Below are positions 1-14,755 of a DNA stretch of 64,000 nt, piece after piece. The stretch is from NCBI RefSeq assembly GCF_921294215.1, contig NZ_CAKLDM010000001.1, positions 496,001 through 560,000 of the forward strand, in the 5' to 3' direction. Within the stretch, counting starts at the first letter, position 1. Each line of letters starts with the position of its first letter. The notes under the pieces are model-generated. The model saw only the letters and a program-made list of their open reading frames with translations, did not search any database and was not told where the DNA came from. A program made the position numbers and the translations under genes. Source of the stretch: Vibrio marisflavi CECT 7928. Its GTDB lineage: Bacteria; Pseudomonadota; Gammaproteobacteria; Enterobacterales; Vibrionaceae.

Positions 1-560
1 ATATGTCAGGTGGTATCTATACGCAAGTCGGGGGCTCTTTAGCTGGGTCTGCTGTGCAGGGTACATTTGCTGGTGAGGCAGCGGCAAAAGCAAGCAAGGA
101 GCTGAAACATGCAAGTATATCTGTTGCTAAGTTAAAGCAGATTGAAAGCGAGATTTTGGCCCCTCTGAAACGCGAAAGAGGCTATAGCCCGGCGTGGGTT
201 ACACAAGTACTACAAGGAGTCATGTTTCCTAACTTTGTGTTATATATTAAAAAGGAACGAATGCTACAAGGTGCATTGGCATATGTGGAGGAGCTGCAAG
301 AACATCACGTCCCTATGTTGCTTGCTGATGATCTGCATAAATTGCGTCTCGCACATGAAACAGAAAATATGATTGCAAATGCACAGATGAAATTGAAAGC
401 ATCTATGATGCGCAAGGAAAGCCGTTGTAGCCATTATCGACTTGATTATCCGAGCATCGACCGCGAAAATTGGCAGGCTTGGATAAATATTCAGAAGGAT
501 GACTCAGGTGAAATGGTGCTAGAAAAACAACCTTTCAACCTTTGGCCGAAGTTTAGCTAA
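1..560 (+). CDS. FAD-dependent oxidoreductase of the fumarate reductase/APS reductase type, C-terminal part
   Basis: This is the end of a longer gene whose start lies left of the window; the Met at position 3 is probably internal. The visible 185 residues open with a glycine-rich stretch (GGSLAGSAVQGTFAGEAAA), as found near the end of the FAD-binding domain of succinate dehydrogenase/fumarate reductase flavoproteins. The tail has the usual C-terminal helical domain, ending in a RKESRCSHYRLDYP motif that resembles the R-x-E-S-R-x-x-H-Y-R signature of that family. The stop codon overlaps the start of the sensor kinase gene (TAATG), so the two are probably co-transcribed. The substrate cannot be told from this fragment. 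The adjoining kinase and response regulator may control this oxidoreductase; that is inferred from position only. Confidence 0.7.
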   Translation, partial: MSGGIYTQVGGSLAGSAVQGTFAGEAAAKASKELKHASISVAKLKQIESEILAPLKRERGYSPAWVTQVLQGVMFPNFVLYIKKERMLQGALAYVEELQEHHVPMLLADDLHKLRLAHETENMIANAQMKLKASMMRKESRCSHYRLDYPSIDRENWQAWINIQKDDSGEMVLEKQPFNLWPKFS

Positions 561-1990
561 TGATACGAATAACAATATTTAAGAAGTTCTTTTTTTCTTT
601 GCTACTGTTAAGTGCGGTTGTGATGTCAGTGATGACAATTCAGATAAACCGCAGCTTCAAGCATGGACTGCAAGACTACCTCAACCAGAATGAACTCAAC
701 AAAGTTAATCAACTGGCAAAGCTGTTAGCGCAGTATTATTCGCCGGACACGGGTTGGCAGGCACTTAAACTTGAGCCTAGATTGTGGGACAAGCTGTTTC
801 GCCAAATTGGAGAGATTCCACCGCCTCCACCACGTCGGGAAGAGCCACTTCGCGACAAACCCTTACGAACACAACACGGTATTGATCCGCTAAGCTTTCG
901 TGTCGCCTTATACAGTGATTCTGGCAAGATTATAGAGGGTAGACCTAGAGGAGAAAGGTTTCCCGAGCGGCCTTTGCAAGAAGTGCAAGTGGATATATTA
1001 GTAGAGAACAAAGTCGTTGGTAGGCTTAGCGTGACACAGAGCCCAGTAATTAACGATGAGTTGGCCAATAGCTTTTATTTACAGCAGCAGTCGAATATCT
1101 ATTGGATCAGCTTTTTTGCGGCGATCTCTTCATTTCTTGTGGCGGCAGCATTATTAGGACGGTTTTTGAAACCGTTGACCTCACTTCAAGATGGAGCAAA
1201 GGCGTTGACAAGTGGTGATTATGATCATCAGGTAGAGGTTGTTGGTAACGATGAGCTCGCTGATCTATCAGAAAAATTTAATCAGCTTGCCTTTGTATTA
1301 AAACAGCAAAAAGAAACTCGTGAGCAATGGATATCGGATATTTCTCATGAATTACGAACACCAATTACTGTGCTAAGAGCAGAGATAGAAGCGGTAGAGG
1401 ATGGCATTCGAAAACCAACGCCAGAAGTTATTCATTCTTTGCATGACCAAGTGCTTAATCTAAGTAAACTTGTTGATGATCTATATCAGCTGTCGTTGTC
1501 CGATACAGGAATATCTCAGGATCTGTCAGATTCAGTAGATTTAAAAAGGGTGATTAATCAACTGCTGACAAGGTATAGACTTAGGTTCGAAGAGAAAAAC
1601 ATTGAGATAGTGAGTGACTTATCTATCAAAGGAGAGTGTATTGTAACGTCAGATGAAAAGTTACTTAACCAATTGTTTTTTAACTTAATGGAAAATAGCT
1701 ATCGCTATACTGATGCTGGTGGTACGGTTAGAGTAACAGTGACAAAAGACTCGAAGTTTTTCGTTGTCGCTGTGGAAGACAGTAGTCCCGGAGTTCCGAA
1801 CGAATCACTAACAAAGCTATTTGATCGATTGTATCGAGTGGATAAGTCTCGAAGTAGAGCGTTTGGTGGCAGCGGTTTGGGATTGTCGATATGCCAAAAC
1901 ATTGTTAAGGCTCACAAAGGCAGTATTATCGCGAAGCATTCCGATCTAGGTGGGCTAAAAATTGAAGTCACTTTTCCAATTCAAAAGTAG
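560..1990 (+). CDS. BaeS-like membrane sensor histidine kinase
   Basis: A 476-residue inner-membrane sensor kinase. One N-terminal membrane segment (about residues 8-26) is followed by a periplasmic domain with an unusual proline/arginine stretch (IPPPPPRREEPLRDKPLR, near residue 90). A second membrane segment lies near 175-200. Then come a HAMP linker, a HisKA domain with the phospho-accepting His in DISHELRTPITVLRAEIEA, and an ATPase domain with an N box (FFNLMENSYRYT), a G1-like motif (VEDSSPGVP) and GGSGLGLSI. The layout and the HisKA motif match BaeS, the envelope-stress kinase. The start codon overlaps the upstream flavoprotein stop, and the response regulator begins 8 bp downstream. 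The signal sensed is unknown and the periplasmic domain is not obviously that of E. coli BaeS, so no symbol is given. Confidence 0.9.
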   Translation: MIRITIFKKFFFSLLLLSAVVMSVMTIQINRSFKHGLQDYLNQNELNKVNQLAKLLAQYYSPDTGWQALKLEPRLWDKLFRQIGEIPPPPPRREEPLRDKPLRTQHGIDPLSFRVALYSDSGKIIEGRPRGERFPERPLQEVQVDILVENKVVGRLSVTQSPVINDELANSFYLQQQSNIYWISFFAAISSFLVAAALLGRFLKPLTSLQDGAKALTSGDYDHQVEVVGNDELADLSEKFNQLAFVLKQQKETREQWISDISHELRTPITVLRAEIEAVEDGIRKPTPEVIHSLHDQVLNLSKLVDDLYQLSLSDTGISQDLSDSVDLKRVINQLLTRYRLRFEEKNIEIVSDLSIKGECIVTSDEKLLNQLFFNLMENSYRYTDAGGTVRVTVTKDSKFFVVAVEDSSPGVPNESLTKLFDRLYRVDKSRSRAFGGSGLGLSICQNIVKAHKGSIIAKHSDLGGLKIEVTFPIQK

Positions 1991-1998
1991 GTGTAACA

Positions 1999-2679
1999 TT
2001 GGCGAGCAAAATACTCATCGTTGAAGACGAACAAACTCTAGCAGCTATCTTAGCCGATTATCTTAAGCATGCTGGTTTTGAATGCCATCTGATATTTAGT
2101 GGTGAGGAGGTTATATCTTGGATTCGCAAAAACCAAACGGATTTAGTGATACTAGATTTGATGTTACCAGAAAGAGATGGACTGGATATCTTTCGAGAGC
2201 TGAGAACATTTAGTGATGTTCCAGTTATGATGGCAACCGCTAAAGTGGATGAAATTGATCGTTTGCTAGGTTTGGAGCTAGGTGCGGATGACTACATATG
2301 TAAGCCCTATAGCCCGAGAGAGGTGGTTGCTAGGGTTAAAAATGTACTTAGACGTACGTTAAAGTCAGGTGTTGACGCGCAGGATAGCGTGAAAGACAAG
2401 TTTTGCATTGATGAGAAAGCAATGATCGCCAAGTTTAACGATCAGTCTTTGCCACTAACGCCAGCCGAGTTTAAGTTGCTAAATCATTTAGTTAGGCTCT
2501 CAGGTAAAGTGCTTAGCCGTGAACAGCTCATGGACAATATCTATAGCGACGGCCGCATCGTGACAGACAGAACCGTCGATAGTCATATTAAAAACCTACG
2601 TAAGAAGATCCAGGTAATTGAACCTGACTGTGATTGCATTAAATCCATCTATGGGGTGGGGTATAGGTTTGAGTTGTAG
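1999..2679 (+). CDS. BaeR-like OmpR-family response regulator
   Basis: A 226-residue response regulator. The receiver domain (about 1-120) has the acidic pair in VEDE, the phospho-acceptor Asp in LVILDLMLPERDG, and the conserved Lys in DDYICKPYSPREVVARV, a stretch typical of BaeR. The C-terminal winged-helix DNA-binding domain (about 130-226) has LTPAEFKLLNHLV and ends in SIYGVGYRFEL. The start appears to be TTG, 8 bp after the kinase stop; no ATG fits the family start as well. It is the cognate partner of the upstream kinase, and the pair forms an operon with the flavoprotein. It converges on the cbb3 oxidase operon across a shared terminator. Its targets are not visible here. Confidence 0.92.
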   Translation: MASKILIVEDEQTLAAILADYLKHAGFECHLIFSGEEVISWIRKNQTDLVILDLMLPERDGLDIFRELRTFSDVPVMMATAKVDEIDRLLGLELGADDYICKPYSPREVVARVKNVLRRTLKSGVDAQDSVKDKFCIDEKAMIAKFNDQSLPLTPAEFKLLNHLVRLSGKVLSREQLMDNIYSDGRIVTDRTVDSHIKNLRKKIQVIEPDCDCIKSIYGVGYRFEL

Positions 2680-2693
2680 TTATTACTAACTTT

Positions 2694-2723
2694 AAAAAGA
2701 AGGCCGAAACTCGGCCTTCTTTT
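2694..2723. terminator. Bidirectional Rho-independent terminator
   Basis: The stem AAGAAGGCCGA / TCGGCCTTCTT has a 3-base loop, an A-run before it and a T-run after it. It lies between the response regulator stop and the convergent end of the CcoP-fusion gene, so it can serve both. Confidence 0.9.
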
Positions 2724-2745
2724 CCACTAACAAAAAATGATAGCT

Positions 2746-4902
2746 CTACTCGATATCAATATCGGGGTCTCGGTTGATGTACATTTGTGGGGTAGTGTGC
2801 AAACCGCCAGTATATCCCGCTTTTTCCAGCAGTTTTCTTACATGAGTGACTTGCTCTGCTGTTACGGCTTCTTTTCTATCGCCTAAATAGTGACGCACGA
2901 AGCTAATTAGGCCTGCTAGCTCTTGATCAGAGAGAATTTCTGCAAAACTAGCCATCGGCATGTAATCTGTCTGCTCGTCTATGTAGCTTGGCGAAAGGCC
3001 ACGAACGGTGACAGCAATAGTATTGAACGGATCACTGTGCATGATAATACCGTTGTGTAAAAGCGTCGGTGCAATGCCTTCTCGTCCTTTACCGTCTTTA
3101 CCATGACAAGCGCCACAGGTGTCACTAAAGAGCTTATAAGTTTCTGATGTCAGCGCTTGCTTAGTAAAACCGGTTGGCGATAACTTGACCGCATCAGGAC
3201 TTATCGTATTTCCCTCATCACCTTTTAATAGGTAGTAGGCGATACTTTCGACATCATCACGAGTCATGTGGCTGAGGCTGTTTTTAACAACGTCGGCCAT
3301 ACCAGCAAATGCGGTTCCTTTAGATGAATCACCAGTGTTGAGAAAATCTGTCAATGATTTCAAATCCCAACCATCAATAAATAACTCGTTTGCGTCAATT
3401 GCAGGCGCATTCCATCCATCAATGAGGTTCCCTTGGAAAATTCGATCTGTTTCCAGTGCTTGGGCAAAGTTACGTGGGGTATGGCATTCGCTACAGTGTC
3501 CTAGTCCCATCACCCAATATTTACCTTTTTGCCATTTCTCTACGTCATCAATAGATGATTTGAGGTTGGCAGGTACTTCATAGCTGAGTGGGGTTTTGTC
3601 CATGAAAACCAGATCCCAACCAAGTAGGCCTAATCGAATGTTGGATGGGAAGATCATCTTGTTTTCATCATTTCTGCGCGGCACCGCGATGATAGATTGC
3701 AAATAGTCCCATAATGCATGCATATCGCTGTCTTTAACGTACTGATAAGATGTGTAAGGCATAGCGGGATACAAGTAGCCGTGTTTGCCTTTACCACTTA
3801 CGAGTACGTCTTTGAACTCTTCGAAATTGTATGACCCAATACCTTCATCAACATGTGGGGTAATATTGGTGGAATAGACGGTACCGAATGGCGTAACGAA
3901 AGGCAGGCCGCCTGCGAAAGGTTCTCCACCGATCGCGCTATGACATGCAATACAATCACCAGCTTGAGCTAGATATTCACCACGTTTGACAGAGGTTTTA
4001 TTGAGCTTGGCTAATTTCGTGTCGTAGCTTAACCGCGAACGAGTAATAAATGCCGCCACCGCAAGAATTTGGTTTTGCGTGAGTTTGTCTTTAAAAGACG
4101 GCATTACACTGTTTAATCCAAACGAAATTGTAGTTTGAATCTCTCCAAGGCTACCGCCATGCAACCATATCGAATTAGAGAGATTTGGTGCACCAATAAG
4201 TGGGTTACCTTGTTTGCCGTCACCATGACAACTTGAACAATATTGCCCAAATAAAGACTCGCCAATTTTGAGTTTAACTGCTGGCGCATCACTGTTTCGG
4301 CCATTAAGGGACGTGATGTGATAGGAAATATCCTGAATTTGTTCTTGAGTTAATATGCCTTTCCATCCGGGCATAACACCATTTCGGCCATCTTTAATTG
4401 AGGTCAGAATAGCTTCGTCGGTACCGCCGTAAAGCCAGTGATTGTCAATTAAATTGGGGAAATTGGTTTGCCCTTGCGCATTACTTCTGTGGCAAGCAGC
4501 ACAATGGGTTTGAAATAAAATTTCACCAGACTGAACCACTTCCTCGTATCCGGCTAAGTTGACCAGCGAATAGTCGCTAATCGTCGACATTTGTTTATCT
4601 AAAGTGGTAACAGGGCTACTGAGTTTGTCGTCACTTTGTTTCCAATCGAGCAGCCCTGACCAATCACCGTATCCCGGATACAGAACCAGATAGATGATAG
4701 ACATGACAAAAGCGATAAAATACGCGGTAAATAGGAACTTAGGAGCTGGTGCATCGCGCTCTTCAATATTATCAAATGTATCAAGAACTTTTTCTTCGTT
4801 GGCTGTCTTATTAGAGCGCCAATACTTGAAAATGACATAAAACATCAGTACGAAGAAAGCTGTGGTAAGTATAAATACCCAAAGGTGCCAGAAAGTATTC
4901 AT
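2746..4902 (-). CDS. CcoP-type cbb3 oxidase subunit fused to a triheme cytochrome c (five CXXCH motifs)
   Basis: 718 residues, over twice the usual CcoP length of about 300. Residues 1-90 match the CcoP/FixP N-terminus: a first membrane helix (about 5-27), the [12 protein letters not shown] linker, and a second helix (about 56-75) ending [10 protein letters not shown]. Two class I haem sites follow, CAACH at 134-138 and CSSCH at 222-226, as in normal dihaem CcoP. The rest carries three more, CIACH at 317-321, CSECH at 470-474 and CGACH at 596-600. These are arranged like the triheme cytochrome subunits of membrane alcohol, aldehyde and gluconate dehydrogenases (AdhB type). Its start overlaps the ccoO stop by 4 bp. 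I infer that electrons from a periplasmic dehydrogenase pass through the triheme part directly to the oxidase. No dehydrogenase gene is visible nearby. The reading frame is open throughout, so this is not an assembly of two genes joined by eye. Confidence 0.88.
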
Positions 4903-5510
4903 TTCAACACCTCCATTGATGTGTCTACACCTAAGCTTTGCAAGTAGCTCACTAAAGCTTCCCCTTTTGTTTTGCCTCTAACTTCGAGCCGTGCGTCGGA
5001 TATTTCAGCTTGGGTATAAGGAACTCCTAAGAATTGTAAGACTTCCATCTTTTTACCTATGTCTTCACCACTAAGTGTTTGTTCAAACAACCATGGGTAA
5101 GAAGGCATTATCGAACTCGGGACAACATTTCTAGGGTTTATAAGGTGATAAATGTGCCATTCATCAGAATACTTCAGACCGACATTGGTAAGATCTGGTC
5201 CTGTTCGTTTAGAACCCCACAAAAACGGGTGCTCGTATATATCATCAGATTCTTTGTTGGCTCTACCGCTGCGCTTTATTTCAGGTTCGAGCGGCCTCAC
5301 TAATTGGGTATGGCATACATGGCAGCCTTCGCTAATGTATACGTCGCGGCCAGCTAGCTGCAAAGGTGTGAGTCGTTTTGCTAAACTGTCCTTCTTTAAA
5401 TCAGAGGATGTAAGCACATTTGGAACAACCCAGACGAGCAGAGACATTGCAGATACAACAACAATCGAAATAATCAGTATGACAACGGAGTGTGTGAAAT
5501 CTTTGCTCAT
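4899..5510 (-). CDS. ccoO: Cytochrome c oxidase cbb3-type subunit II
   Basis: A 203-residue monohaem cytochrome c. One N-terminal membrane anchor (about residues 10-32) is followed by the CcoO hallmark [21 protein letters not shown], quoted here in part, with haem-binding Cys63, Cys66 and His67. Then come [11 protein letters not shown] and the methionine region [11 protein letters not shown]. In cbb3 oxidases this subunit passes electrons from CcoP to the catalytic subunit. Its first base overlaps the last base of ccoN and its end overlaps the CcoP-fusion gene by 4 bp, so translation is probably coupled. No ccoQ gene lies between them; in many proteobacteria ccoQ sits between ccoO and ccoP. 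Confidence 0.95.
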
Positions 5511-6922
5511 TACGCAGCCTCCTTCTCAAGGAGTGGGTTTGGTGTCCGAATAGTTTTGTATAAGTTGGTTACCATAAGCAGCATACCTGCGACAAAAATA
5601 GAGCCGCCAATAAAACGTAACAACAACCATGGAGCCTTGAAGTCGAGTACTTCGATAAAGCTATATTTCAATTCGCCATTTTCGTGTTGTGCGAGCCACA
5701 TATAGCCTTCACCGATGCCAGCCACCCATAGCGATATGGCGTAGAAGGCAATGCCAATGTGAGCCATCCAAAAGTGCCACTTAAGCAGTCGGGTGGACCA
5801 GAGTTTTTCTTTACCCCAAAGTTTGGGGATGAAGTAATAGAATGTCGCTATACCAGACAGGGCAACCCAGCCAAGAGCTCCGGAATGGACGTGCCCGATG
5901 ACCCATTCGGTATTGTGCGCAAGCATGTTAAACCAGCGGATCGCAAGTAAAGGCCCTTCAAATGTAGCTAAGCAGTAATAGATCACGGCGGAAAAGAAAA
6001 ACATCAGAATGTAGTCGGATTTCAACTTCGGCTTATTTTGAAGAAGCGTCATGCCAATGTTGAACGCGCCAGCCCAAGAAGGGAGCCAAAGAATTAAGGA
6101 CATGATCATACCGATATTCTGAACCCAAACTGGTACTGACGAATAGAGTAGATGGTGCGTTCCTGCCCATGTGTAGAATCCGATCAATCCCCAAAAGTTT
6201 ATTATGGATAGCCGATACGAGTAGATAGGGCGGTCAGCAGCTTTCGGAATAAAGTAATAGTTCATGCCTATTACACCTGCGGTTAACATGAAACCAACGG
6301 CATTGTGTCCCCACCACCACTGGACAATCGCATCGTTTGCTCCTGCATATATAGAGTATGATTTGGTCAGTGTCACCGGAATTTCGAGATTGTTAATAAC
6401 AAATATCAGTGCAATGACGATAATAAATGCGGCGAAAAACCAGTTTGCGACAAAAATGTGTTGAACTTTGCGTTTAGCGATAGTGCCAAAAAAGAGTACA
6501 GCGTACAGAACCCAAACAAGAGCAATTAGAATATCGATCGGCCACTCAAGCTCAGCATATTCTTTTGAAGTGGTGTATCCAAGTGGAAGTGTAATCAACG
6601 CTAACCATAGGATCAGCTGCCAACCCCAAAAGACCATCCATGCAAGGCTTTTATTGAATAGCCCACACTGGCACGAGCGTTGTACAATATAGAGAGAAGC
6701 CCCCATTAGCATATTACCGACAAAGCCATAAATGACGCCGGATGTATGAAGTGGACGTAGTCTGCCAAACTGAAAATATTCTGAATCAAAGTTGAGTGCG
6801 GGCCAATACAGTTGTGCAGCGAGTATTGCACCAATAGTCATGCCTGCAACAGCCCAAATAACAGCGGCTACAACAAAATACTTCACCACTTTAAGGCTAT
6901 ATTGCGCGTCGGTGTTGTTCAT
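5510..6922 (-). CDS. ccoN: Cytochrome c oxidase cbb3-type catalytic subunit I
   Basis: A 470-residue polytopic haem-copper oxidase subunit. All catalytic ligands are present: His59 (RLRPLHTSG), His206 ([10 protein letters not shown]), the cross-linked Tyr250 with His256 and His257 ([12 protein letters not shown]), Glu322 ([10 protein letters not shown]), and His344 and His346 ([12 protein letters not shown]). They lie one position below the Pseudomonas stutzeri numbering as I recall it. A usual G-P-H-H is G-T-H-H here. The enzyme reduces oxygen to water with high affinity while pumping protons. The operon order is small cytochrome c, ccoN, ccoO, CcoP fusion. Vibrios usually also carry a standard ccoNOQP elsewhere, so this may be an extra, specialised oxidase; that is an inference. 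Confidence 0.95.
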
Positions 6923-6932
6923 GCTGTATTCC

Positions 6933-7283
6933 TTATTTGTTCGAGTCTTTACCTAAATTTGAGTAGTAGTAGGCGATGTCTTCCATATCCTGATCACTGA
7001 GGTTCTCGGCTTGCTGCTGCATTAAAATTGCTAAGCCACTAGTCCTATCTCTTGCTTTGTAATCCTTGAGTGCTGACACTAGGTAACCGTATTTCTGTCC
7101 ACGAAGGTTAGGGTATGGGTCTAAGGTGGAAATGCCATTCTCACCATGGCATGTCATGCAAACCTTCGCTTTTTGTTTGCCGAGTTCGAATTTGTCAGCA
7201 CTCTCTGCAAAAGTGCTAGAAGAAAGCAACAGAGCTGAAGTAAAGAAAGTAGGGATCCAGTAGAATTTTGCACTCATAGCCAT
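6933..7283 (-). CDS. Small periplasmic class I cytochrome c
   Basis: About 116 residues with a signal peptide (cleavage likely after SSSTFA) and a single haem site, KVCMTCHGENG. Downstream are PNLRGQKYGYLVSALKDYKARDRTS and a methionine in LAILMQQQAENLSDQDMEDIAYYYS, which resembles one half of cytochrome c4 or a c553-type carrier. It is the first gene of the cbb3 operon, 10 bp before ccoN, and probably delivers electrons to the oxidase. The start is uncertain: ATG at 7283 is chosen; ATG at 7277 and TTG at 7289 are in frame, and none has a clear ribosome-binding site. Confidence 0.85.
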   Translation of the reverse strand: MAMSAKFYWIPTFFTSALLLSSSTFAESADKFELGKQKAKVCMTCHGENGISTLDPYPNLRGQKYGYLVSALKDYKARDRTSGLAILMQQQAENLSDQDMEDIAYYYSNLGKDSNK

Positions 7284-7289
7284 GACCAA

Positions 7290-7693
7290 TATAATTTCAC
7301 TTCAATATAGCGTAGTATCAATGTCTTAAAATTGTTATATAAAAAACACCAATTCTTGTATCTTTCATTCGAGCTATGACACTATTTTCTTAGGGGTTGA
7401 ACTGTCATTTTCTCTCTGTTGCTTGAGCGAAAAATGATAGGTCAGCGATCAAAGTGTAGGTATAGAAGGTACAGGCACTAGCCTGTTACTGCGAGTTTGT
7501 ATAATTTTGAAATACTAGAAGAAATGGAATTGAGAATATGGATTAGATAGAATAACTGTTGGCATTTAAGTCTAATCTTTACCTGAATTAAATTTAAAAC
7601 AAAGCGATCTATTTTACGTATATGGACAGTAAGAAATAGCATCCCTGCTAATGTTTGATTTAATCTGATCCCAATTATCTTTACATGTTGATA
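7290..7693. other. Non-coding region between the cbb3 operon and the beta-barrel gene
   Basis: About 400 AT-rich bases. They should hold the cbb3 operon promoter (minus strand, right-hand part below about 7400) and the 3' end region of the beta-barrel gene. I found no clean FNR/ANR-type box (TTGAT-N4-ATCAA), no convincing hairpin terminator and no small gene. Confidence 0.5.
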
Positions 7694-8281
7694 TTATTTA
7701 AAAGTATATCGAGCATTTACTAGGAAGTTAGCGACTGCAGGAGCAGCATGGTCCGCTGAGTCGCCGGTTGGAGCACCCCAATAATATGTTGCTGACGTAC
7801 CCAGGCTAAAGGTATCAGTTACAGCGTAGTTTATTCCTAGTCCTACTAATGGAGAGACATCGTGTGCTGTATTATTTCCAATGATTTCAAAACCATTTAT
7901 GCCTTGTGCTTTCAACATCATATATGCGACACCACCTTTTGCAAACACGGACAACTTATTCGTAATTTGGTAGCTACCTACACCCGATAAGTCAATTGCA
8001 GAAGACTTAAGTACAATCCCTCCTAGGTATTCTGCATTGCCAAAATAGTTGTAGCCTAGCTCACCGCCAAACTTCCAGTTATCATCAATTGCTTGTTCGT
8101 AACCGCCAGCTAGCCTTGCGGACGCAGCTCCTTCAAATAGGCCTGTGTCCTCGCCACCACCGCCAACTTGCTGGATATTGCCACCAGCACCACCTTCTGC
8201 ATAAAAGTTGCCAGCAAAAGCACCTGTAGATGCAAGTAAAGCAGTAAGTGCTATAACATTTTTTAAACTACGTAATTTCAT
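7694..8281 (-). CDS. Small outer-membrane beta-barrel protein (OmpA-like porin fold)
   Basis: 195 residues with a clear signal peptide (MKLRSLKNVIALTALLAS, cleavage after GAFA). The mature part alternates polar and hydrophobic strands with glycine turns (KFGGELGYNYFG, LSVFAKGGVAYMML, PLVGLGINYAVTDTFSLG) and ends in LVNARYTFK, close to the aromatic C-terminus of outer-membrane barrels. Eight strands are likely. The family includes OmpA N-terminal domains and OmpW/opacity-type proteins; there is no peptidoglycan-binding domain. It stands alone, with about 230 bp to the next gene. Its precise function is unknown. Confidence 0.8.
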   Translation of the reverse strand: MKLRSLKNVIALTALLASTGAFAGNFYAEGGAGGNIQQVGGGGEDTGLFEGAASARLAGGYEQAIDDNWKFGGELGYNYFGNAEYLGGIVLKSSAIDLSGVGSYQITNKLSVFAKGGVAYMMLKAQGINGFEIIGNNTAHDVSPLVGLGINYAVTDTFSLGTSATYYWGAPTGDSADHAAPAVANFLVNARYTFK

Positions 8282-8513
8282 ATGATTCTCTATTCAACTC
8301 TATGTTTTTAAAATAAAAATAATCAAAAAATATAACTGATAACATTATAATTTGTGTGAGATTTTATTTTTGTTCTGAATAAAGTAAATGAATAAAGATA
8401 TTACTATTTATAATAATGTATATTGGCTTGTATCTCTGATAGCCTATTACTTAATAAATAAGCTAACAGAATTGACGTACAGTTTATTGATTATATTAGA
8501 AGTGTGTTATTGA

Positions 8514-9704
8514 CTAACTTTTTATATTCTGGTGTTTTTTTGTTTGATGAAAATGGTCACGTTTAACCGAGATGATTTTCTGATAGTCAGCATCTACTAG
8601 CTTTCTCGCTTCCGGTGAAGATTTAGCAAGGTCATAAATTGCCGTGTAAGCGGTCTTGGCTATATTGTAAGGGTCGTTACCCATCACCCCACCGACTAAG
8701 ATAATGTCGTTTCCGGCAAGCACTGCTTTTTGTACTGCTACTCTCATATCATATTTGTTCTCAATGGCTTTTGCATCCATATCGTCAGTGATGATTAGAC
8801 CTTTAAATCCAATCTTGTTCCTCAGCAGCCCAGTAACAATGGGTTTTGATAAGCTTGCCAGTTGACCAGTTTTATCCAGTTTTTTGTTTATTAGGTGCGT
8901 GACCATGATGAATTGACATGGGTCGGGGATATTAATTAATTGTTGATAGGGCTCTAGCTCTTTCGGTGACCAAGTTTTGGTAACGTCGACAGAGTTAAAA
9001 TCAGTATTGCTAGATGCGCTACCCAAGCCCGGGAAGTGCTTTAACGTGCACATAATTCCCGCTTTGTGGTAACCATCAATTTCGGCTCTCGCCATTTTCA
9101 CAACCAGTGGAACATCTTTTCCGAAGCTTCGTTGATATTTTCCGATTGCAGGGTTATCAGGGTTGATATTCAGATCGACAACAGGCGCGAAATCCAAGTT
9201 TACACCTTCCTCGTTCATCAGCTCACCTTGCGTGTATGCTTGGTATTGCGTGTAGGGTGGGAAGTTCATAGTACCGAGCTGCTGTTCACTTAAGTCTGAA
9301 AAGAAACGGAATCCTTTTTTCTCTTTGAGGTTTGAAATCATTCCACCTTCTTGATCGATACCAATTAACAACGGTGGTAATTCGGTTTGTCTAGCGTAAG
9401 TTTGTAGGTCGCTCGTTAGCTGTTTAAGTTGCTTAGGATCCGCGATATTTCTTGTTTTGTCGTCTTGGTGATCGAACAATATAATTCCGCCTATGTCATA
9501 TTCCGACATCTCTTTAACAATTGGCGAATCGGCACTTATCTTGGTTCCGTATAAGCCTACCATTAACATCTGTCCTACTTCTTGTTTTAGAGTTGGAGCC
9601 TGAGTGGAGGAAGCATAGCTGGCAGGGCTGATACTGAACAGCGCAGAACACAATACGCTAAGGCTAAGTTTATTTATTCTCTTATTTACTGTTGAAGGCT
9701 TCAT
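8514..9704 (-). CDS. Secreted glycoside hydrolase family 3 protein (NagZ-like)
   Basis: 396 residues. A signal peptide (about 1-31, ending SPASYASS) precedes a GH3 barrel domain. Family motifs are LKQEVGQMLMVGLYG, LIGIDQEGGMISNL, NLDFAPVVDLNINPDNPAIG, MCTLKHFPGLGS and GFKGLIITDDMDAKAI; the Asp in the last is the expected catalytic nucleophile. NagZ enzymes remove N-acetylglucosamine from muropeptides and use an Asp-His pair in K-H-F-P-G-H-G-x4-D-S-H. Here that stretch reads KHFPGLGSASSNTDFNS, so the general acid/base His is absent. NagZ itself is cytoplasmic, while this protein is exported. It may act on chitin oligomers or peptidoglycan fragments, or may have changed specificity. It is a single gene with no operon partner. 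Confidence 0.85.
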   Translation of the reverse strand: MKPSTVNKRINKLSLSVLCSALFSISPASYASSTQAPTLKQEVGQMLMVGLYGTKISADSPIVKEMSEYDIGGIILFDHQDDKTRNIADPKQLKQLTSDLQTYARQTELPPLLIGIDQEGGMISNLKEKKGFRFFSDLSEQQLGTMNFPPYTQYQAYTQGELMNEEGVNLDFAPVVDLNINPDNPAIGKYQRSFGKDVPLVVKMARAEIDGYHKAGIMCTLKHFPGLGSASSNTDFNSVDVTKTWSPKELEPYQQLINIPDPCQFIMVTHLINKKLDKTGQLASLSKPIVTGLLRNKIGFKGLIITDDMDAKAIENKYDMRVAVQKAVLAGNDIILVGGVMGNDPYNIAKTAYTAIYDLAKSSPEARKLVDADYQKIISVKRDHFHQTKKHQNIKS

Positions 9705-9780
9705 ATAGATATCTCTTAACTCTACATAGAAGCGCGACGATACAGGAATTAAGTGATCCTGCCGTAAGAAAAATGTCAGC

Positions 9781-9826
9781 GTTTTTGTGAAAACGGTTGA
9801 ATGCGAACAAACAACCGTGCAAAAAC
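9781..9826 (-). terminator. Large hairpin downstream of the threonine aldolase gene
   Basis: Two stem blocks pair: GTTTTTG (9781-9787) with CAAAAAC (9820-9826), and ACGGTTG (9793-9799) with CAACCGT (9812-9818), with a small asymmetric bulge between. It starts about 30 bp after the ltaE stop. The T-run on the minus strand is not immediate, so the terminator call is moderate. Confidence 0.55.
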
Positions 9827-9854
9827 GTTCAATAAGATATGGAATGAATGAACG

Positions 9855-10859
9855 CTAGATGTATTTATTTAACTTTTCTATCAATAGTTCGATGTGTTGT
9901 TTTGTGACATCACGATGAGTAACAAGTCTTAGTGGGTTGCTAGCTGTAACCGTAAAGCCATCGTCAGCAAGTTTAGCGGTAATCGTTTTTATATCGACAG
10001 ATTCATCCAGTTTGGCAAAGACGATATTTGTATGCACATATTCAGCTTTTACCGAAAAGCCAGGCAGTTTCGCCAGTTCAGTCGCTAAATATTTCGCATT
10101 TTGGTGGTCGACTTTAAGCTGCTCAACATTCTCCGTTAAAGCAATTTTACCTGCTGCGGCTAAGATACCTGCTTGACGCATACCGCCGCCAACCATTTTG
10201 CGTAGTCGACGAGCTTTCGCTATGTACTCTTTTGAACCAAGCAAAAGTGAGCCAATTGGTGCGCCTAACCCTTTAGATAAGCAGATAGTCATTGAATCGA
10301 AGTATTTTGCTATCTCTCGTACGTCGATATCCAGAGCGACGGCTGCATTGTAAACTCGCGCTCCATCTAAGTGCATGGATAGACCATATTCATCAACAAA
10401 TTGACGGGCGCTTGCTAAGTATTCCAATGGTAGAACTTTGCCATTAATGGTGTTCTCTAAGCTAAGCAATTTAGTGCGAGCAAAATGGCTGTCATCAGGC
10501 TTTACCGCGGCTTTAAGCTTTGCAATATCGAGGCTTCCATCTGGATTGTTCTCAATAGGTTGAGGCTGGATTGAACCAAGTACAGCTGCACCACCAGCTT
10601 CGTAAAGATAGTTGTGTGCTTGTTGACCGCAAAGGTATTCATCACCTCGCTCACAATGAGCCATCAAGCCTAGTAGGTTCGCTTGTGTTCCTGAGCTAGT
10701 GTACAGTGCAGCTTCGAAGCCGTGGCGTTCCGCTGCCCATTGTTCTAGTTCGTTGACTGTCGGGTCATCACCATAAACATCATCACCTACGGCGGCATTG
10801 ATCATGGCATCACGCATTGCTTGGCTGGGTTTAGTTACAGTATCGGATCTAAAGTCCAT
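9855..10859 (-). CDS. ltaE: Low-specificity L-threonine aldolase
   Basis: 334 residues, the usual length. It starts with the family signature MDFRSDTVTKPSQAMRDAM and DDVYGDDPTVNELE. The PLP-binding Lys is in MTICLSKGLGAPIGSLL, and HLDGARVYNAA carries the Asp that contacts the pyridine nitrogen. The enzyme cleaves L-threonine and L-allo-threonine to glycine and acetaldehyde with pyridoxal phosphate in the cytoplasm. It lies 10 bp downstream of the Nudix gene on the same strand and is preceded by AAGGAG, so the two form an operon. Confidence 0.95.
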   Translation of the reverse strand: MDFRSDTVTKPSQAMRDAMINAAVGDDVYGDDPTVNELEQWAAERHGFEAALYTSSGTQANLLGLMAHCERGDEYLCGQQAHNYLYEAGGAAVLGSIQPQPIENNPDGSLDIAKLKAAVKPDDSHFARTKLLSLENTINGKVLPLEYLASARQFVDEYGLSMHLDGARVYNAAVALDIDVREIAKYFDSMTICLSKGLGAPIGSLLLGSKEYIAKARRLRKMVGGGMRQAGILAAAGKIALTENVEQLKVDHQNAKYLATELAKLPGFSVKAEYVHTNIVFAKLDESVDIKTITAKLADDGFTVTASNPLRLVTHRDVTKQHIELLIEKLNKYI

Positions 10860-10869
10860 GAAATTCTCC

Positions 10870-11385
10870 TTAAATATAACCTAAGAGCTTTGCTTTACTT
10901 AGGCACGCAATGGTTTTTGCGTCTGTAATTTTGTCTTCTATTATTGATTGTTCAATTTGTTTAAGTGACATTGTCACAACTTCGATAACTTCATCGTCAT
11001 CGCAAGCTAATTGAGTGGGTTTCGATAACTGGGTGGCAACAAATAAATGCTGTATTTCATCGCAGAGACCAGCCATCGGTGTCAGCTGACCAAGTGCAGT
11101 ATAGTTCCGGGCGCTGTATCCTGTTTCTTCTTTGAGCTCTCGCTTTGCACACTCGATTGAGCTTTCACTGCCTTCGATTGTTCCTGCTGGCAGTTCATAT
11201 AACCACTTACGCAGAGAAGGACGGTATTGATTGACTAAAACAATCTCGCCGCTTTCAGTTATGGGTAAAATGACAGCAGCACCTGGATGATGGATAGTGG
11301 TGTGCGATATCGTCTTGTTGTTTGGGAGAGTGACGGTGTCTTCTACCAACGAGATACGCTTCCATGTGTGTATTAGTATACTCAT
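10870..11385 (-). CDS. Nudix hydrolase, ADP-ribose pyrophosphatase type
   Basis: 171 residues. A complete Nudix box, G-x5-E-x7-R-E-U-x-E-E-x-G-U, is present as GTIEGSE followed by RELKEETGY, with a preceding LVNQYRPSLRKWLYELPAG stretch typical of ADP-ribose and sugar-nucleotide pyrophosphatases. The family hydrolyses nucleoside diphosphates linked to another group, using Mg2+ bound by the box glutamates. The exact substrate is not given by sequence alone. It is the first gene of a two-gene operon with ltaE, divergent from ravA. Confidence 0.9.
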   Translation of the reverse strand: MSILIHTWKRISLVEDTVTLPNNKTISHTTIHHPGAAVILPITESGEIVLVNQYRPSLRKWLYELPAGTIEGSESSIECAKRELKEETGYSARNYTALGQLTPMAGLCDEIQHLFVATQLSKPTQLACDDDEVIEVVTMSLKQIEQSIIEDKITDAKTIACLSKAKLLGYI

Positions 11386-11649
11386 ATATAGTTCTTAGTG
11401 ACGTTAGAGGTTAAATATTGTTCAAACGTTGAAAGGTTCTGCTCAAAGCGTGTTGTAGAGCATACCTTAACGGCTATGACTTTTGATTGAAAGTTGTAAA
11501 ATGAGTTCAAATTCACGGATGTGACTAACTTCAGCTGATATGAGCATTGGGTTGAATAATTCTGCCCACAATCTTGTCCGAAGCAAGTGGTAATAAATGT
11601 ACGAACTAATGGCAGTAACAATCAGTATTCAATTCCAAGGAGTGCAACA

Positions 11650-13302
11650 ATGATTAATCCTTCTAAAGCGTCCCACTCACAAAAAGCGCTTCTTGCCGAA
11701 CGAATTGACAAATTAGCCATCGCATTAGCAGACGGTGTATACGAAAAAGAAAGTACCATAAAACTCTGCTTGCTTGCTGCTCTAACGGGGGAGAGTGTGT
11801 TTTTGCTTGGCCCTCCTGGCATCGCGAAAAGTTTAATTGCGAAAAGGCTGATTCAAGCTTTTGATAGCTCGAGCTATTTTGAATATTTGATGACTCGATT
11901 TTCTACCCCGGAAGAGGTGTTTGGGCCATTGAGTATCCAAGAGCTTAAAGACAACGGCCGTTATGTCCGATTAACTGATGGTTATTTGCCATCGGCTCAG
12001 GTTGTATTTCTCGATGAAATTTGGAAAGCAGGCCCAGCTATCTTGAATACCTTGCTGACTGTTGTAAATGAGAGAACGTTTAAAAATGGTAACGACATAC
12101 TCAAAGTACCAATGCGTTTATTGGTTACCGCTTCGAATGAGTTACCTGACGAAGATAGTGGTTTGGAGGCGTTGTACGACCGAATGTTAGTGCGCGTTTT
12201 CGTCAATCGGATTCAAAATAAACAGAACTTTAAATCCATGCTGACGGTTGGTACTCCGCAAGAGGCGAATATTCCAGAAGGGTTAGCGATAACCGATGAA
12301 GAGTATCATCAGTGGCAAAAAGAATTAGATGAGTTAAAGCTTGCGGACGACATTTTTGAAAAACTCTATCAGCTGAAATCTTTGCTTGAGAAAGAGTCAG
12401 AAAAGCAAGTAGGTATCGAAGATATTTATGTCTCAGACCGACGATGGAAAAAGGCGTCAAAGCTTTTGAAGGCCAGTGCCTATTTTAATGGACGTGACAG
12501 TATCAACCCGTTGGATTTATTGTTACTACAAGACTGTTTATGGAGCAGTCCTGAAACGCGAGATATCGTTAGAGGCGTTATTCGAGATTTCGCATTAACG
12601 TACGCGTTTGATCAGCAAGAAGTGGAGATCAATATAGCGCATGTTCGTGAGGATCTAGAAGAGATTCAACAGCAGCTTGAAGAGCAGTTTGCCATGAGCC
12701 TTTCAAGTGAAACAACATCAGGAATTCTTAAGAAAAATATCTATCATTACAGCCTCACGGATGCCAAGTATCACAATGTTGGTAAGTCATCGAACTTGAT
12801 TAAATTGGTTATTTTGCAAAGCAATATGTCTGTTTCCGAGAAAGAGAAAGGCGATAGCCGTTGGATATACATAGCTAAAGCAGACCTAGAAAAAGTGATC
12901 AAAGATGGTCAAGGTGAAGCTTATGGTTACGTTAATAAAAATAGTAACTTATGCCGCCTTCGTTTCGATAGTGACTCCAAGAATCGGCTAGTGATTAAAG
13001 ATATTGCTAATCGTTCTATTTTGCTGGCTTTAGCTGACAACAAAGGGCTCGATAGCGAAGTGTATAGTGAGTGGCTTGATAAAGGTGAAGCTGCGATTGA
13101 AAAATTGAACAAAGCTGAAGAGCACTTGAAGAGTTCCAGACTTAAATTCCATCAAGCCTTGCCACATAATTTTATTGAGCCAGATTACTTGACGTTGATT
13201 GAGTCGAGTATTCAGGATTTGCAGCAGCAACTAGAATCGATAAAAGCTACGTCAGATAAGACCATTTTCCGATTTAAAAACCTTGAACAGTTTTTCTCAT
13301 AG
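11650..13302 (+). CDS. ravA: MoxR-family AAA+ ATPase RavA
   Basis: 550 residues. The start at 11650 is chosen because AAGGAG lies about 8 bases before it; the frame stays open upstream to 11587 without family resemblance. The AAA+ core has Walker A GPPGIAKSL (about residue 53), Walker B VVFLDEIWKAGPAILNTLL, and the MoxR-type sensor LLVTASNELP. The C-terminal third holds the RavA-specific discoid region and a helical end. In E. coli RavA forms a hexamer that works with ViaA, binds the lysine decarboxylase LdcI/CadA and acts on respiratory complexes. viaA follows 7 bp downstream. The presence of an AdiA-type decarboxylase 18 kb away is worth noting, but a direct link is unproven. Confidence 0.93.
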   Translation: MINPSKASHSQKALLAERIDKLAIALADGVYEKESTIKLCLLAALTGESVFLLGPPGIAKSLIAKRLIQAFDSSSYFEYLMTRFSTPEEVFGPLSIQELKDNGRYVRLTDGYLPSAQVVFLDEIWKAGPAILNTLLTVVNERTFKNGNDILKVPMRLLVTASNELPDEDSGLEALYDRMLVRVFVNRIQNKQNFKSMLTVGTPQEANIPEGLAITDEEYHQWQKELDELKLADDIFEKLYQLKSLLEKESEKQVGIEDIYVSDRRWKKASKLLKASAYFNGRDSINPLDLLLLQDCLWSSPETRDIVRGVIRDFALTYAFDQQEVEINIAHVREDLEEIQQQLEEQFAMSLSSETTSGILKKNIYHYSLTDAKYHNVGKSSNLIKLVILQSNMSVSEKEKGDSRWIYIAKADLEKVIKDGQGEAYGYVNKNSNLCRLRFDSDSKNRLVIKDIANRSILLALADNKGLDSEVYSEWLDKGEAAIEKLNKAEEHLKSSRLKFHQALPHNFIEPDYLTLIESSIQDLQQQLESIKATSDKTIFRFKNLEQFFS

Positions 13303-13309
13303 GTGACGT

Positions 13310-14755
13310 ATGCTGGGAGCAGAAGGTTTAGATTTAATCGTCTCTATTGCGGACTCCGGCATTGTTGAGGCTGCTGTTTACGATCTAATGGGCCGCTCAG
13401 AAGTGTCAATGATGAGTGAGCGGCAGGGAGTAAAGGCCTCAATAAAGAAGCATCTACGACACTGGCAGGTGAGTATTAAGTCTCGTATCACGCATGTGAG
13501 TGAAACCCAAGAATTTCAACAGGAACTAGCGCTTTATCAGGAAGTTATTTATTGGAACGAAGAGCGTTTTTTTCATGATATACACGGTATTGTCAAGCAA
13601 CTTGAAGGGCATTCCGCGTTCCACTCTCAGGCAGTAAAGCTACTGGACGATAGCGCGAGTTTAAACAACCCTATGTTTCCGCGCTATTTTTGCGATCAGT
13701 GGTATAAAACGTTATCAAATGAAGTTAAGGAATCCCAGATTGCTGAGATAGAAGCTAACAAAGAGAAAGTGCTGGAAGATCTTTATCAGCGTATGGAAAC
13801 AATGAAACATATGGATAAGGTCTCTGAATCAGGGGATGAGAAAAGCATTGGTCGACTCTGGGATATGGCATCGGCCAAGTTGAGCAAAACTGACTTAAAA
13901 GTGATGAAACGCCATGCTGAGTTTCTTCGTAAGCATAAAGGGCTACAAGAAATAGCTGAAAAACTTGGCCGAATGGCAAGTGAGGTTAACGACCCTGATT
14001 TAAACCTTGCACCGGCTGAAGAACTCAAAATGGTGGAAGAGAGATCGCAAGAAGCCACTGATGATATAGTGGGTATTCACCCTAGTGACGATCTCAATAA
14101 GCTGTTACCCAATGAAACCATGTTTTTGGCCTATCCTGAACTAGAAGTCATTTTCTACAAGCACTTAGTTGATAAGCGTTTAATGAACTATCGCATGGAA
14201 GGGAAGTCGCGCACTCTGCGCAAAGTGAAATCGAGCAAGCCTGAAAATAAGAAAGCAGACATTGATAAGGGACCATTTATTGTTTGTGTAGATGCTTCGG
14301 GTTCAATGAGTGGCTTCCCCGAGCAATGTGCCAAAGCTATAGCGTATGCATTAATGCAAATTGCCCTTGCCGATGATAGGCATTGCTACGTGGTTTTGTT
14401 TTCAACGGAGCAAATTACTTATGAACTTACCAAGCAAGATGGTCTGCGTGAGGCAGGAGATTTCCTCACCTATAGCTTTCATGGTGGAACAGATTTAGAA
14501 CCGGTGATGATTAAATCTGTTGAGTTGATGCACTCTGCAAAATACCGAAACGCTGATCTTGTCGTTGTATCAGACTTTATTGCTCCTAAGCAACCAGATG
14601 AAATTTTGCAGCAAGTGCACCAATTAAAGCTAAAAAGTAATCGCTTCCATGCGATTAGTCTATCCAAATATGGCAACCCAGAGTTAATTTCAATGTTCGA
14701 TCACTGTTGGTCTTATCACCCAACCTTAATGGGTAGAATCACAAAGAAGTGGTGA
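13310..14755 (+). CDS. viaA: VWA-domain protein ViaA
   Basis: 481 residues, the usual length. The N-terminal two thirds are helical and charged. The C-terminal von Willebrand A domain (from about residue 320) has the MIDAS motif D-x-S-x-S as VCVDASGSMSGFPE, with the supporting Thr in FHGGTDLEPV and Asp in VVVSDFIAPKQ. It is the partner of RavA and enhances its ATPase activity in E. coli, where the pair affects aminoglycoside sensitivity and respiratory enzymes. It starts 7 bp after ravA, so the genes form one operon. Confidence 0.93.
   Translation: MLGAEGLDLIVSIADSGIVEAAVYDLMGRSEVSMMSERQGVKASIKKHLRHWQVSIKSRITHVSETQEFQQELALYQEVIYWNEERFFHDIHGIVKQLEGHSAFHSQAVKLLDDSASLNNPMFPRYFCDQWYKTLSNEVKESQIAEIEANKEKVLEDLYQRMETMKHMDKVSESGDEKSIGRLWDMASAKLSKTDLKVMKRHAEFLRKHKGLQEIAEKLGRMASEVNDPDLNLAPAEELKMVEERSQEATDDIVGIHPSDDLNKLLPNETMFLAYPELEVIFYKHLVDKRLMNYRMEGKSRTLRKVKSSKPENKKADIDKGPFIVCVDASGSMSGFPEQCAKAIAYALMQIALADDRHCYVVLFSTEQITYELTKQDGLREAGDFLTYSFHGGTDLEPVMIKSVELMHSAKYRNADLVVVSDFIAPKQPDEILQQVHQLKLKSNRFHAISLSKYGNPELISMFDHCWSYHPTLMGRITKKW

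Follow-up and report, generated by a model that had tools for sequence, protein, structure and literature searches.

Among the described systems close to this locus is the canonical CcoNOQP oxidase (PDB 3mk7, which we take to be from P. stutzeri), whose CcoP has two haem sites. A ccoQ gene is usual in cbb3 operons but not essential. Longer forms of CcoP are already known. In Neisseria, fusion to a cytochrome lengthens the C terminus of CcoP by one c5-type domain, and the trihaem protein is believed to belong to a route by which electrons can reach NirK (available part of PMC2924362). The electron path proposed for the R. capsulatus enzyme from cytochrome c2 is cp2, cp1, co, b and b3; the results suggest onward electron transfer by a cytochrome joined to the CcoP end, and the authors consider that membrane-bound cy may deliver its electrons to cp1 instead of cp2 (accessible sections of PMC7876108). 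The physiological donor cited for the V. cholerae cbb3 oxidase is cytochrome c4 (accessible text of PMC5492768). A different group of proteins also bears on the locus, the trihaem cytochrome subunits of molybdenum hydroxylases, ADH, FDH and aldehyde dehydrogenase (8gy2, 7w2j, 8gy3).

We analysed a stretch of 64,000 nucleotides from Vibrio marisflavi CECT 7928 (the window), which carries, in the order small cytochrome c, ccoN, ccoO and ccoP, an operon whose last gene joins these two kinds of protein; we call it ccoP5 (Table 1). The operon shares with the canonical one CcoN, CcoO and residues 1-287 of CcoP. It differs in having no ccoQ, a leading cytochrome of its own and five haem sites in CcoP rather than two. 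Where the Neisseria protein gains a single c5-type domain, ccoP5 has a dehydrogenase-type unit with three haem sites, and unlike the trihaem dehydrogenase subunits it is fused to CcoP and has no adjacent dehydrogenase gene. This pentahaem version appears to be undescribed: among the matches listed from open-licence PMC literature, as far as the available text goes, we found no description of it, and the accessible parts of PMC10732223 and PMC9230427 contain nothing on such a fusion. A literature search on the cryo-EM haem paths of ADH and FDH gave nothing useful.

TABLE 1 Features of the five-haem operon in the window and of two related four-haem operons
Feature	Positions	Strand	Description and basis
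ccoP5	2746..4902	-	Predicted pentahaem CcoP, 718 aa; frame plus profile and structure matches
CcoP half of ccoP5	4042..4902	-	Residues 1-287; two hydrophobic helices, haem sites I (C134) and II (C222)
Trihaem half of ccoP5	2836..3996	-	Residues 303-689; haem sites III (C317), IV (C470) and V (C596)
ccoO	4899..5510	-	Monohaem subunit, 203 aa; NF011055 over cut-off
ccoN	5510..6922	-	Catalytic subunit, 470 aa; TIGR00780 over cut-off
Small cytochrome c	6933..7289	-	c4/c552/c554-type monohaem cytochrome, probable donor; 118 aa with the called TTG start, the real one perhaps further in
Four-haem operon, L099 (G110)	197-4749		ccoP with four haem sites, c4-like dihaem end by eye
Four-haem operon, L101 (G011)	5635-10186		ccoP interrupted

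The ccoP5 frame starts with ATG and has no internal stop. Its CcoP half matches CcoP profiles and structures (NCBIfam TIGR00782, 200 bits over a cut-off of 179.95; PF14715, the FixP_N domain, 31.4 over 24.9; 3mk7_C, E 1.3e-49). Residues 288-689 match the trihaem cytochrome subunits of dehydrogenases, with 8gy2_B of ADH at E 4.3e-61 and also 8hdd, 7w2j and 8gy3, and we place the trihaem half itself at about residues 300-690. Candidate distal methionines are M177 and M267 in the CcoP half and M381, M535 and M648 or M650 in the trihaem half. The predicted structure is of moderate confidence (mean pLDDT 71, pTM 0.67); a fold search ranked CcoP and trihaem chains first and, below them, chiefly cytochrome c domains from other proteins. 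A reading of the sequence alone had proposed a single frame with a normal CcoP N terminus followed by three further CXXCH sites, in an operon that lacks ccoQ and begins with a small cytochrome c, and each of these points stood. The ccoO stop and the ccoP5 start overlap as ATGA, leaving no room for ccoQ between them, and a monohaem cytochrome gene does precede ccoN.

We then asked whether the fusion is real. Proteins that combine a CcoP N terminus with the trihaem domain form a conserved family, represented here by 164 rows: 120 from a protein database, taken by length alone, and 44 locus ORFs of more than 680 aa, preselected for at least four CXXCH and an FWxxW start. The own protein occurs twice among them, and 155 rows are distinct after trimming of starts. 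All 164 have five CXXCH, and M177, M267, M381, M535, M648 and M650 are likewise invariant. Because every row carries all five motifs and the fusion occurs in 37 of 121 genomes of the family, relatives are fused rather than split, so a sequencing join or a pair of separate genes is ruled out; the invariance of the motifs and methionines likewise rules out chance CXXCH. At the level of sequence, these data confirm ccoP5 as a putative pentahaem CcoP and the fusion as genuine and strongly conserved.

The 121 genomes belong to the own family, which is Vibrionaceae judging by its named kin, and the count of 37 includes the own genome; in one of the 37 (G115), a frame change breaks the gene into two overlapping ORFs. 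The fusion was present in 9 of 247 genomes drawn at the level of the order, own genome included, and in a class-level draw of 369 it was seen in the own genome only (E up to 1e-75). A protein search with ccoP5 gave 2223 matches, and 118 of the best 120 covered the whole query. Named carriers among the matches listed are Vibrio, Photobacterium, Aliivibrio, Shewanella and Psychromonas, plus one labelled only Pseudomonadota. Searching from a distant member gave 170 proteins at E up to 1e-100, the best 120 of which add uncultured Microbulbifer and Sinobacterium. Their database names vary ("c-type cytochrome," "cbb3-type subunit III," "putative diheme cytochrome c-553," "thiosulfate dehydrogenase"), and none shows five haem sites. 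Mean identity across 13 clades was 79.7% for CcoN, 72.0% for CcoO and 55.6% for the small cytochrome, the least conserved product of the operon. Within CcoP5, conservation is highest in the trihaem half, at 67.7%, against 61.2% for the dihaem CcoP part and 50.5% for the membrane part.

The oxidase core is of the cbb3 family. CcoN scores 591.3 bits with TIGR00780 (cut-off 583.15) and aligns along 3mk7_A (E 4.6e-178), retaining the residues that we take to be the haem and CuB ligands. CcoO is recognized by PF02433 (212.8 bits) and NF011055 (236.5 over 218) and falls just below the cut-off of TIGR00781 (197.7 versus 200.65). Since the own genome also holds a canonical set on another contig, in the order ccoN, ccoO, a 59-aa frame at the ccoQ position and ccoP (L025), the operon in the window is an accessory one, predicted to encode a cbb3-type (C-family) oxygen reductase.

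Where did the trihaem half come from? In the order, stand-alone trihaem kin adjoin MoCoBD and [2Fe-2S] genes, often with XdhC as well. We typed 16 of them by their flanks, while three more loci (L068, L069 and L118) yielded no ORF that matched: 11 are molybdenum linked, 4 are linked to GMC genes and 1 was not typable, so that 15 of the 16 adjoin a dehydrogenase gene. In a tree of trihaem sequences, with several long branches and an arbitrary root, the fusion forms one group (100/100), which clusters with all but one of the 11 molybdenum-linked subunits (97/96), separately from the remaining sequences. Three of the four GMC-linked sequences fall in another set with the eleventh molybdenum-linked one, from the own genome (L056), and L119 lies between. 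The trihaem half thus plausibly derives from a molybdenum-hydroxylase-type electron-transfer subunit. Earlier, the three sites had been called AdhB-like; this remains apt for the fold, but the closest relatives are cytochromes that serve molybdenum hydroxylases. In the own genome, the molybdenum hydroxylase cluster (L056, 4803-15686) lies among three copies of one 413-aa transposase-like frame.

The four genes travel as a cassette. Small cytochrome, ccoN, ccoO and ccoP5 were kept together in all 16 further loci, and in 14 clade groups the three oxidase genes were always present; the small cytochrome was counted in 12, because only ORFs of at least 110 aa were considered. The flanks vary. Families seen in 3 of the 14 clade groups are helicase-like, signalling-like and ABC-type ATPase (named by eye) and hcp and hcr (by Pfam), and a sigma-54 activator that we take to resemble NorR recurs in two. 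No dehydrogenase gene travels with the operon: there is none in the operon itself and, by eye, none among the recurrent flank families across the 14 clade groups. At a distance of about 4 kb or less from the operon, hcp, in some cases with hcr, is present at five loci (L078, L079, L081, L082 and L085) from three clade groups.

A related system was found in two genomes, G110 and G011, as a ccoN-ccoO-ccoP operon that ends in a TsdA-like gene (Table 1). It shares with the five-haem operon an extended CcoP and a CcoN 63% identical to that of the window, compared with 48 to 55% for canonical CcoN, making it the nearest by identity outside the five-haem family. It differs in that the extension is, by eye, c4-like and dihaem and in the TsdA-like gene itself. 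This gene matches TsdA structures (4wqc, 2e-38; 5lo9, presumably a TsdBA fusion, 6e-68), and its Pfam SoxA-TsdA domain is under the cut-off (21.6 versus 27). Among ORFs of at least 80 aa, we saw no separate small cytochrome in the operon. CcoN sequences (duplicate L099 dropped) form three groups in an unrooted tree, canonical (100/100), four-haem (100/100) and five-haem (85/80), with the window CcoN outside the canonical group. In the absence of an outgroup, and given a warning from the program that long branches adjoin, the branching order of the three is unsupported, and we dropped the label "sister" for the four-haem system in favour of nearness by identity. Four-haem CcoP relatives occur in Moritella and Shewanella psychropiezotolerans, and Marinicella sp. 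W31 has a 517-aa CcoP (P0135) with four CXXCH that resembles a duplicated dihaem CcoP. The entry subunit of a high-affinity respiratory oxidase is modular, its C terminus having gained, depending on the line, a c5-type (Neisseria), c4-like or trihaem unit.

What feeds the five predicted haems? We favour, with about an even chance of being right, an accessory cbb3 oxidase in which CcoP holds a wire of five haems that receives its electrons mainly from c4-type cytochromes and perhaps also from dehydrogenases. The trihaem cytochrome would have been added at the C terminus of CcoP, beside the haem presumed to receive electrons from a soluble cytochrome. Electrons would run from haem V through IV, III, II and I to the CcoO haem, haem b and haem b3-CuB. 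The general donor would be the co-encoded cytochrome after its reduction by bc1, and the trihaem part would act as an extended docking wire that in some strains may also accept electrons from periplasmic dehydrogenases. The nearest structures to the small cytochrome are c552 (1cno, 1e-22), c554 (2zzs, which we take to be from V. parahaemolyticus, 1e-21) and c4, one matched c4 chain having a sequence common to 8smr and 8snh (titled P. aeruginosa bc1-cbb3 supercomplex). A soluble c4-type donor is favoured because the operon cytochrome is c4/c552-like, because c4 is the donor cited for V. cholerae and because the trihaem part directly follows the haem domain proposed as the entry for c2. Since the operon encodes such a cytochrome, the sequence-only proposal of a route without a soluble cytochrome is unlikely. 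The invariant haem sites and candidate methionines, the higher identity of the trihaem half than of the rest of CcoP, the retained CcoN ligands, the constant four-gene cassette, the R. capsulatus results on a fused cytochrome and the 17 of 37 fusion genomes without any of the trihaem-dehydrogenase markers (see below) also support the favoured explanation. Against it, the small cytochrome is the least conserved product, which is odd for a partner of the best-conserved part of CcoP, and the trihaem half is more strongly conserved than a simple conduit for electrons should require. The route proposed from cy to cp1 in R. capsulatus (accessible sections of PMC7876108) also means that electrons could enter elsewhere than at the C-terminal haem.

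The main rival to a soluble donor, which we regard as tentative, is that the trihaem half docks a periplasmic dehydrogenase encoded elsewhere (a molybdenum hydroxylase, a flavoprotein or another enzyme) and passes substrate electrons straight to oxygen. If so, this electron route would skip quinone and bc1. The conservation of the trihaem half fits a dock, as does the place of its stand-alone kin beside molybdenum-hydroxylase (11) or GMC (4) genes, and the four-haem operon of G110 (and of G011, with its broken ccoP) is the strongest hint, by analogy, that such oxidases can be dehydrogenase wired. Yet neither operon nor recurrent flanks hold a dedicated enzyme, and across the 121 family genomes the distribution of the fusion is not followed by markers of the known dehydrogenases that use trihaem subunits. 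PF13618 has no match in any of the 121, and the own genome, the only one searched for GMC oxidoreductases (PF05199), has none, so we rejected a GMC/gluconate-type partner. PQQ-ADH scores over the cut-off in 17 of the 121 and in 0 of the 37 fusion genomes, and it was rejected as well. PF20256, the molybdenum-hydroxylase marker, occurs in 20/37 fusion genomes versus 47/84 others (p 0.85), and its single frame in the own genome has its own trihaem gene adjoining. A stand-alone trihaem subunit is found in 6/37 versus 5/84 (p 0.09), and 17 of the 37 have none of PF20256, PQQ-ADH over the cut-off, PF13618 or this subunit. TsdA kin are in excess (13/37 versus 11/84, p 0.012 by a statistic that ignores kinship), which mildly favours a dehydrogenase link. 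In a broader and similarly speculative form of this idea, marine gammaproteobacteria would have substrate-wired cbb3 oxidases, in which CcoP has taken up the cytochrome that accepts electrons from a periplasmic dehydrogenase. One line would combine a c4/TsdB-like unit with a TsdA-like enzyme, and the present one would have the molybdenum-hydroxylase trihaem unit. Periplasmic oxidation would then reach oxygen without bc1, the five-haem partner being unlinked and perhaps of an unrecognised family. We consider it improbable that the extension is instead an electron outlet or branch point. The trihaem CcoP of Neisseria is a precedent (available part of PMC2924362), but the operon has no reductase, and NirK was over the cut-off in 1 of the 121 genomes, one without the fusion, and in none of the 37. 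Prismane is more frequent in fusion genomes (33/37 versus 49/84, p 0.0007, kinship ignored) and hcp or hcr lies nearby in 3 of 14 clade groups, which would suit an outlet; Hcp is cytoplasmic, however, so this nearness hints at conditions rather than electron flow, and we treat it together with the Prismane excess as a lead about conditions, not a mechanism. Very improbable is a quinol:oxygen chain without a carrier, in which the trihaem half would take quinol electrons or dock bc1 directly. The trihaem subunits of acetic-acid-bacteria dehydrogenases do react with ubiquinone, and bc1-cbb3 supercomplexes exist (entry titles of 8smr and 6xkw). However, the fusion ends in a polar tail shortly after the haem V domain, and 8gy2_B aligns only up to residue 433 of 478, the remainder, which we take to be its membrane part, having no match in the fusion. 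Whether a soluble cytochrome or a dehydrogenase feeds it, this is a testable and widespread respiratory enzyme whose database names hide five haem sites.

Regulation was examined upstream of the small cytochrome at 32 loci. The exact NorR pattern had no match there, and FNR and sigma-54 patterns with at most two mismatches gave scattered matches at differing positions. The FNR control, upstream of three canonical ccoN genes, gave two-mismatch matches or none; it is a poor control and the scan says little, and we set a shared regulator aside as a candidate. A promoter scan found 6 versus a shuffle mean of 11.8, a terminator scan found 5 versus 4.1 in shuffles, and Rfam gave no match over the gathering score in positions 1-14000 of the window. 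Between the baeR-like gene and ccoP5, an inverted repeat with T-runs (2692-2724), missing from the terminator scan output, looks by eye like a two-way terminator. The convergent neighbours at 3-2679 are the end of a fumarate-reductase-like flavoprotein gene and then a BaeS/BaeR-like two-component pair; they are absent from the recurrent flank families save for one response-regulator match in L008.
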